The notes below the pieces were generated by a model that was given only the letters and a program-made list of their open reading frames with translations, made no database searches and had not been told where the DNA came from. 64,000 nucleotides of DNA from Apostichopus japonicus (lineage: Eukaryota > Echinodermata > Holothuroidea > Aspidochirotida > Stichopodidae). The stretch is from NCBI RefSeq assembly GCF_037975245.1, contig NC_092581.1:2862001-2926000 (forward strand), read 5' to 3'. Both the position numbers and the translations under genes were made by a program. Below, piece by piece: positions 34,301 through 37,300 of the stretch (its first letter is position 1; each line of letters opens with the position of its first letter).

Positions 34301-37300
34301 AGGAAAGAAGAGTAAGAAGAAGATATGTGTCTTCCATGAAATAAAGTGAACTTATTTATACTCAATGTTCATAGGACAAATAGAGAATATGAATTTACAG
34401 CTAGGCGTGCAAAGCTAGGGAGTGAGTGCGATGACGGGGGTGGGGGGGAGGGGTGGTTCTTGTGTATGAGGATGGGATATGACGGCTGCATCGTGAAGCA
34501 CTAACAATTAAAACCCTCAATTTGTGAAACATAGAGTCTGGCCATGTTGTGCGTATCACGTAATTTGAGCTTTATCCGTGTTTAATGGACGGGCCCATCG
34601 GACGTAAAATGCATTACTACACAACTCCCTTCTCCCACATGCATATGTGTCTGTTTTTTGCCACGAAATGACTCTATTCCAACCGCCATTGCAGTTTCTG
34701 ACATAATAACGTTATAAATGCTATGTGTTTTTTTCATCCTAAATTATTGTCGTTATAGTTTAAGTGTATATATATATATATATATATATATATATATATA
34801 TATATATATATATATATATATATATATATATTAATTTTCAAGACATTTATCCTCACCCCTCCCCACCCCCTCCCGACCCACTATGGCATCTGACATCCAC
34901 ATTGGAAGCAGTAGACAGATACAGCCTGCAGGTTTGACCAGAGGGGAAGGAGAGTCAGAGGTGGATACGGTGTCCATTGGGGGGCCTGAGGAAATATGTG
35001 ATAAAGAATAATGTATTCCCAATTTCACATCATATTGAAGCAAAAAATGACGGCCTAAATAAGAGGGCACGATTATATAATTGCCCCCAGAAGCTTATAT
35101 AAGGCTCTGATTGCCCCGAGACCCGAACTACACATGAAGCTCTTGACGCCATTAGAAAGGGCTTAGTTGTAAACACTAAAAGAGAGATATGGACATTTTG
35201 GAACACCCACCATTTTGGCCTTATACATGCAGAGGTGTACGTTAAATCCAAGCTCTTTGCTAGCTACGGCGGCAGTTCGGCAGTTATTGGAAGAAATAGT
35301 TCCACGTGTGATAACTGTGTCACAATTCTTCTCCAGCGCTTCAGCAAGGTTGAATTCTAATCTTCTTATCTTCAAAAAATGAAGTAGCAGGAAAAATATG
35401 AAAGGAATACTGTATCATTGAGAGAGATGTGTATCAGACACGACCACTCAAGATGCAGGAAAAAACAACTTGAAATATGCCGGTATAGGATATACACGCT
35501 ATAGGGTAACGTGTTGTATTATAAATATATTATGTTGTATTATAAATATATATATATATATATATATATATATATATATATATATATATATATATATATA
35601 TATATATGTATATGTGTGCGTGGGTGTGTGTGTGTAAACAAATATATATATGTAAACATCATATTACCCCAGTGTTACCAAGTACATAGTATAAAACAAG
35701 GTGACTTTTGATATCAGGATATGTTGGGTGGGGATAGGGGATCGAGGTGTTGAACTACTATCAAACGTATTTGATATAGGCACAAACGATAACATAAATT
35801 ATTTCGATAACATAGAATATTTCGAAATGCAAGAGAAAATGAAGTCTTTCCGCAAAAGGTCTTCGGCTGGAGAACGAGGAGAGTAAGCTAGCATGAAGAG
35901 CCGGGTGAAGTGATTACGACTAACCTTATGACCAGATGTGGCTCCTCCAGTCATATCTTCTCGCTTAATGTAAATTTCGAAGCTGTTTGGGATTTCAGGA
36001 AGATACCATTTTTGAATAGGGGTATTCGTTTGGCAAAGCTGAAAGAACAACAAGCACAAAAACATTCGGTTGTTCTACTTAACCATTAGAGAGGCGAGAT
36101 ACAATCATGGTATACAGAATAAGTTATAGTTTAAAATTTTTAAACAGTTTACAAGTTGTGAAAAGTGTACACGTGACACGTAAACTTATTATCATATATT
36201 CTCTCAATCCATGAGTTTAGAACTTAGTATTTAGAACCTTTGAAAGGGACCAGAGGGAGGATACAGGACCTTGGTGCTGCCCTGGGGAGCTGTTGAAGCT
36301 GAATCCCATAAAAGGAATAGCGCGAGGGCGGGGGGGGGGGGGGGTTGGAGGTTTGAGTCTTTTACAAACTTTAGAAGAGTGATTTTTGCTCTTCTTTGTG
36401 CTGACAAGGTTATCGCCAGCATAGTGATATATAGTAACCCTATTGAATATTAGAAAGAAACCACATTTCTTTCCCTTTGGGCTCAATATTGAAGGTTACT
36501 GTGTTATTAAGTGTAGCGCAATCTTGCTACAATATTAACCAATGAGCGGATAAATCAGATTATCTCTATCTCATTGGGGTGGGGTGGTTAAGAAATAAAT
36601 TTCTAAAAAAGTAATAGATTACCGACTCGTAGTGGGGTCCTTGGAAGGACAGAAAAGGGATGAAGGAGGGGTGGGTAGGGGGGGGGGCGTTGAGAGTAAT
36701 ATTGACATCTTTTCGGAAAGGATATAGTTGAAATCGCTACCCCGAAGCTGTTCCAATACAAACAAGTAGAGGCATAGACTCAATTAAAGGTAGCCAGTAT
36801 AGGCCACAAATTATAGCACGCTATAATTGCTAGAAGTTTTCAAAAAGTAGTTTCCTAGGGGTCTTTACTCTCCAAATTGTTCTCAGATATATTTATGAAA
36901 CACACAAGATGACTGAATGCCCCAGTGAGGAAACTTTCCTCGAAGGTTATAATATAAAACAGTTTAAGAATTTTGACCAAAGGTGACCATATTAGAAGAT
37001 CTAGCATATTTGGTGCCAATGTAAATATATGGAAAATAACACTTAATTTAGGTATCTGTTATTATTTATTTTAATGACAAGATAGCTCTTCAAGTTCATT
37101 TAAGAAAGAAAAAATTGTCTTCTTTGGTTATTAAACTGCACATTTTAATATAAATGTTCATAACATAACCAGCAATACAACCAGTATTAAATTCCAAAAG
37201 TTTTCTGTAAGAAACTTTAATCGAATGCACATGATAGAATTTCTTTGTTAAGACCATTAAATATAATTTCTATATATTTTTTGGATATAGTGTGTTATAA

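Follow-up and report, generated by a model that had tools for sequence, protein, structure and literature searches.

A probable P-type excision scar in an intron of a desulfhydrase-family gene, and similar scars across the genome

The window, by which we mean the whole 64-kb stretch of DNA analysed here, holds at 35080-35117 a 22-bp stub between two identical 8-bp copies, reading ATTGCCCC-CAGAAGCTTATATAAGGCTCTG-ATTGCCCC. We are highly confident that this scar arose when a P-family element was excised and the broken ends were joined. The first-pass annotation had proposed the same origin, and the matching tips, the intact target-site duplication (TSD) and the existence of like scars with TSDs genome-wide all favour it. 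One scar of this kind is nothing unusual for a P element; the real interest lies in the genome-wide archive of such scars and in the serial scars described below.

Anatomy of the scar and of the P-like family

35080..35087, plus strand: left TSD copy ATTGCCCC, exact repeat
35088..35109, strand not assigned: probable 22-bp excision scar CAGAAGCTTATATAAGGCTCTG, matching the palindrome CAGAGCCT-TATATA-AGGCTCTG at 20 of 22 positions
35110..35117, plus strand: right TSD copy ATTGCCCC, exact repeat

The 22-bp footprint and its intact 8-bp duplication are exactly as first annotated, and the site has the marks of a P excision footprint, namely a TSD intact on both sides and stubs of both tips. When the scar is compared with the tip of the P-like element at 26149-29571, whose end lies 5.5 kb away, its final 14 bases are exact, as had been claimed, and its initial 14 carry two mismatches. 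These mismatches are two adjacent positions in the left arm that deviate from the family tip; no change is seen in the rest of the stub (20 bases) or in the TSDs (16 bases). The 161 bp flanking the scar match once in the genome.

Within the window, the scar is the sole exact 8-bp direct repeat around a CAG...CTG stub of 6-60 bp (simple words being excluded from the scan), and no such repeat arose in 200 dinucleotide shuffles of the window. The palindrome is matched at 20 of 22 positions in the scar, against a best of 14-17 of 22 in each of 20 shuffles. A relaxed scan of the window, in which one TSD mismatch was permitted and one end was sufficient, gave 25 candidates, with the scar sharing 18 tip bases and the runner-up 6. 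The 8-bp repeat taken alone is weak evidence and would allow for a chance resemblance: the 223 kb fetched around the window contain one further CAG...CTG stub between exact 8-bp copies, and this stub is unlike the tip. A scan of the 223 kb around and including the scar found no second tip. DNA folding of the scar in its window sequence gave nothing beyond the shuffles, and neither exact-pattern scans of viral and prokaryote contigs nor phage records yielded anything useful.

The element whose tips the scar resembles has the following parts.

26141..26148, plus strand: left TSD GAGACTAT, identical to the right copy
26149..29571, minus strand (that of the THAP frame): P-like element of 3423 bp, recognised by TSD, terminal inverted repeats (TIRs) and THAP domain
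26149..26180, plus strand: 32-bp TIR CAGAGCCTTATATAGAGAGAGTTGCGACAACT, one of an identical pair
29234..29512, minus strand: open frame that encodes part of a THAP domain (PF05485, E 4e-6; THAP1 in PDB, E 9e-4)
29540..29571, minus strand: 32-bp TIR, identical to 26149..26180
29572..29579, plus strand: right TSD GAGACTAT, identical to the left copy

It thus combines the 8-bp TSD, the TIRs of about 30 bp (32 bp here) and the THAP domain expected of the P superfamily; the PF05485 match is above the cut-off and partial, covering profile positions 1-54 of 87. No match to an RNase H-like (DDE) catalytic domain was obtained in 10 further minus-strand open reading frames of the window copy, and with no transposase catalytic domain in these frames the copy looks non-autonomous. 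Two long Pfam scans, run on the plus strand only with stops read as X, gave nothing useful.

We searched the genome (671.6 Mb in 35 contigs) with the element's first 112 bases, which yielded 103 candidates; scoring of 40 of these returned 41 matches. Forty of the 41 are full-length and 99-100% identical, the window copy among them and 20 at 100%, and the remaining one is a 32-base TIR. On this ground the family is young, which fits the earlier claim that it was actively excising in this lineage. Five copy stretches were fetched, with long alignments to the window copy at 96.7-99.1% identity: four have both ends and identical 8-bp TSDs, one of these abutting another copy with which it has the TSD in common; the fifth shows a single end. 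The suggestion that the left-arm difference of the scar was inherited from a parent with the variant tip CAGAAGC is unsupported, in that the tips of 20 of 20 further fetched ends read CAGAGCCTTATATA (with C for G at base 15 in 10 of them), though these ends were picked by 99-100% identity to that end, so that a two-change tip could not appear.

Inside the element lie two segments, 26734-27706 and 28538-29194, bounded by CAGG ends and by duplications of 8 or 7 bp, which we take to be hAT-like. They recur, complete or partly, in other fetched copies and so spread along with the P-like family, and the idea that they were late insertions marking an old relict was dropped for this reason.

The presence of hAT-like segments with CAGG ends and TSDs of 7-8 bp, two of them within the P-like element itself, raises the question of whether the scar was left by a hAT element or another unrelated transposon whose TSDs are 8 bp long and whose ends read CAG..CTG. 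A hAT footprint would have no long stubs and altered flanks; here 22 bp of tip remain and the two TSDs agree. The stub also carries 14 exact P-tip bases, and in the published account of hAT excision, as far as it was drawn on here, hairpins form on the flanking DNA and the scars are variable (PMC3878927). The exact tip bases and this published behaviour led us to reject a hAT origin, which we regard as very improbable.

The host gene

35925..36040, minus strand: host gene exon (TIGR01275 profile positions 1-45, E 4e-7, frame 35805-36074; ends approximate)
35211..35372, minus strand: host gene exon (TIGR01275 40-94, E 9e-14, frame 35169-35414; ends approximate)
34154..34284, minus strand: probable host gene exon, assigned by inspection, AG/GT splice sites present; not matched by the profile
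32756..32851, minus strand: host gene exon (weak TIGR01275 match 139-173, E 0.05, frame 32696-32872)
31333..31435, minus strand: probable host gene exon, assigned by inspection; not matched by the profile; ends approximate
30776..30953, minus strand: probable host gene exon, assigned by inspection; not matched by the profile
25143..25305, minus strand: last host gene exon found (TIGR01275 263-310, E 5e-11, frame 25143-25400; ends approximate)

The scar lies between the exons at 34284 and 35211, about 93 bp into the intron, and the element lies between 25305 and 30776. Ordered minus-strand frames of the D-cysteine desulfhydrase family, each a fragment match, flank both features, which bears out the first-pass statement that the two sit in introns of one gene; the statement is supported chiefly because the flanking exons have profile matches. 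The second of these frames (35169-35414) also matches D-cysteine desulfhydrase structures in PDB (E 8e-6). The single exons all score below the TIGR01275 whole-protein cut-off, Pfam gives a weak PALP match (E 0.055), and the three exons found by eye were assigned from their order and splice sites. A description of the region as lying between GOPC and a Calx-beta gene was overturned by the desulfhydrase exons.

Elsewhere in the window we observed a PDZ exon of a GOPC-like gene at 3013-3189 on the plus strand (PDB, E 1e-24), with a possible last exon at 15929-16402; a Calx-beta-like frame at 51203-51619 on the plus strand, below the Pfam cut-off; a tRNA gene at 46362-46436 on the minus strand (Rfam RF00005); and a tandem repeat at 11662-13072 with a 400-bp unit in 3.6 copies.

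Similar scars across the genome and the proposed origin

The first-pass annotation had suggested looking for other 8-bp repeats that bracket CAGA...TCTG stubs, and these exist: there are hundreds of scars, many of them with TSDs. Allowing up to two mismatches, the 22-mer occurs at 101 places genome-wide, against 0 for a reversed-pattern control. The wider pattern CAGAGCC-N1..24-GGCTCTG occurs at 561 places against 10 for its control, and with a spacer of N25..54 the same flanking words occur at 81 places against 10, at least 15 rows among those listed being two scar-like stubs about 8 bp apart. Taken with the shuffles of the window, the counts of 0 and 10 in the reversed and control patterns led us to reject chance resemblance as exceedingly unlikely.

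The places listed are the first by contig rather than a random sample, and for the two-mismatch 22-mer they run to contig 11, ahead of the window's own scar. Among the 50 distinct 22-mer places listed, 4 are exact and 29 are a sister palindrome, CAGAGCCGTATATACGGCTCTG, which may derive from elements with another tip, putatively CAGAGCCG. We fetched 40 of these 50 places and found a perfect 8/8 TSD in 22 and at least 7/8 agreement in 29, as compared with 35 of 1560 cross-pairs, a control that is itself raised because of shared flanks; some of the places are not independent, L068 and L069 having the same flanks. For the wider pattern, 20 places were hand-picked from 50 listed rows, leaving out fetched 22-mers and some repeats, and these gave a perfect TSD in 10 and at least 7/8 in 14, compared with 1 of 380 cross-pairs. 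A TSD of at least 7/8 is absent from 11 of the 40 and 6 of the 20 places, respectively. A tandem array at G000:C9:28231849-28232425 contains six scar-like palindromes at 111 bp spacing, and these listed places likewise do not count as independent.

The length of the retained stubs also bears on how they arose. In the 50 listed CAGAGCC-N1..24-GGCTCTG stubs, scored with four tip variants permitted, the longest tip match is at most 17 bases in 38 and 18-19 bases in 12; when shared bases are given to the other side, 11 of these 12 come to 17 and one stands at 18. A few of the N25..54 rows have leading tip matches of 19-20 bases (C5:24406508, C10:260640), which may be real element ends or copied filler. 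Drosophila P transposase leaves single-stranded tips of 17 bases, according to the portions of the literature drawn on here (PMC7776569, PMC10983969, PMC11368186), and the limit of about 17 bases seen in the listed scars agrees, at the level of sequence, with such a staggered P-type cleavage.

An element may also be lost without transposase, by replication slippage or by a chance break that deletes between two TATATA repeats. TATATA is present in both TIRs, and deletion between the copies yields the identical 22-bp product, so that the window scar alone would look the same. Against this, stub pairs number in the hundreds and are joined in many different ways, and a limit of about 17 bases in the 50 listed points to a fixed cut position; we consider transposase-free loss improbable.

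Excision by a P-type transposase followed by end joining, for which we argue from the anatomy described above and, for the repair pathway, by analogy with Drosophila, would have proceeded in the following order. A copy of the window's P-like family would have inserted at ATTGCCCC, duplicating 8 bp. A P-type transposase would later have cut the element out, cleaving one strand at its end and the other 17 bases inside, and each broken chromosome end would have retained a 17-base single-stranded tip, CAGAGCCTTATATAGAG. As the two tips would be identical, they could pair only through a self-complementary stretch. TATATA, at positions 9-14, is the only self-complementary word of more than four bases in the predicted overhang, and annealing would most likely have taken place there. 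Once the 3-base flaps had been trimmed, the gaps filled and the strands ligated, the product would have been a 22-bp palindrome with both TSDs retained.

A join at TATATA predicts CAGAGCCTTATATAAGGCTCTG, of 22 bp, and the window scar is CAGAGCCTTATATAAGGCTCTG with two changed bases, which would have been changed afterwards or altered during the join. Given P excision and end joining, we hold this symmetric join to be fairly probable. The first-pass annotation had instead described CAGA joined to the right-hand stub via a few bases. That description would mean an asymmetric join that leaves CAGA on the left, a 4-base filler and a 14-base right stub, the alternative being the near-palindrome with two changed left-arm bases. 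The Drosophila tables drawn on here do contain stubs that are short and carry a small insertion, CATGA-CC and CATGATGAA-GCCTC among them, and a random filler would agree at two or more of four places with a probability of 0.26, so that filler explains this one scar equally well. In length, however, the scar agrees to the base with the 22 bp that a symmetric join yields, and two of the four filler bases are in register with it. We regard the asymmetric version of P excision as rather unlikely.

Serial scars, a possible target motif and known P systems

At C5:9341950-9342180, four different scars (22, 30, 26 and 16 bp) lie between five copies of ACCAGGAT. At another locus (L024), two family ends face each other over one shared 8-bp TSD, ATTACTAT, an arrangement that is likely a precursor of serial scars. 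The two observations together indicate either repeated insertion at one target or tandem insertions that leave singly. A third locus, C6:5951540-5951910, is an array of units of about 30 bp, each CAGAG...CTCTG plus TTAGGACC and variants thereof, which may have grown by rounds of insertion and excision or by tandem duplication of the usual kind; that several units are nearly identical argues partly for duplication.

Many flanks of the insertion sites share a candidate target motif, RRKGGCRC, which presumably resembles the CTCF core. In the window it lies beside both the scar and the element.

35063..35070, plus strand: GAGGGCAC, an RRKGGCRC match whose end lies 9 bp ahead of the TSD of the scar; missed by the narrower motif
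29589..29596, minus strand: GGTGGCGC motif, 9 bp from the TSD of the element

Of 45 sites, 29 have RRKGGCRC ending at a distance of 9-10 bp from the TSD, compared with 15 of 40000 random positions drawn from the window and 220 kb around it. The 45 sites comprise 40 scars, the window scar, the window element and three fetched copies (L025, L027 and L028), and leave out L024, L026 and the one-sided ends L029-L048. This form of the motif was widened after the flanks had been seen from a narrower one, [GA]G[GTA]GGC[GA]C, which ends 7-10 bp from the TSD at 21 of the 45 sites against a background of 13 of 20000, and which misses the window scar. The 29 sites fall by crude grouping into 9 groups, with 16 in one flank group and three more that resemble the same repeat shifted by one base. 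In the second sample the motif is present at 4 of 20 places, which is rarer than in the first set and above background. As a tentative proposal, P-type elements may repeatedly strike the same 8-bp target, guided by RRKGGCRC about 9 bp away, with each round adding a scar and a TSD copy; the genome would then carry serial records of end-joining repair in their order, and could assemble short tandem arrays from scars.

Text searches found no paper for the letters of the tip, and none for excision scars together with the target motif. The nearest parallel is with Drosophila melanogaster P, where, in the tables available (PMC2895639, PMC5466332), many junctions likewise retain both TSDs together with a stub of each tip that does not exceed 17 bases; the joins fall at words that are self-complementary or microhomologous, and small insertions occur. 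For P{wa}, symmetric joins at the self-complementary AT number 5/23, 7/25 and 9/29 in three mutant tables, in each of which the symmetric join is the commonest row; in the control table the symmetric join accounts for 3/34, and the commonest junctions lose both stubs at TSD microhomology, 14/34 (PMC2895639, PMC5466332; sums made here). The Drosophila tip differs, being CATGATGAAATAACATA, and the events there were laboratory events, whereas several hundred stub pairs lie in one genome here. The self-complementary word is also longer than in Drosophila, at 6 bases, and that of the sister tip would be 8.

Outside insects, zebrafish Pdre2 and THAP9 provide a P-like system with an 8-bp TSD and a THAP protein. 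The TIRs of Pdre2 are 13 bp, compared with 32 bp here, and zebrafish THAP9 in fly cells gives larger flanking deletions, whereas the flanks of the window scar are intact; these comparisons rest on the sections of that report drawn on here (PMC10983969). P elements and P-MITEs of Anopheles gambiae share the 8-bp TSD and the THAP domain, with TIRs of 27-31 bp, and, as here, there are non-autonomous relatives with changed insides; the part of that account used for comparison reports no scar archive, unlike the present genome (PMC1562414).

The scar archive, the serial scars and the possible target motif merit specialist attention. A self-complementary word within the tip may assist healing of the donor site, as the symmetric join suggests. 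Several hundred natural P-type junctions in one animal genome could reveal the cut position, the microhomologies and the repair insertions without an assay, and with serial scars and a motif at near-fixed distance, target choice by P could be put to the test beyond Drosophila.
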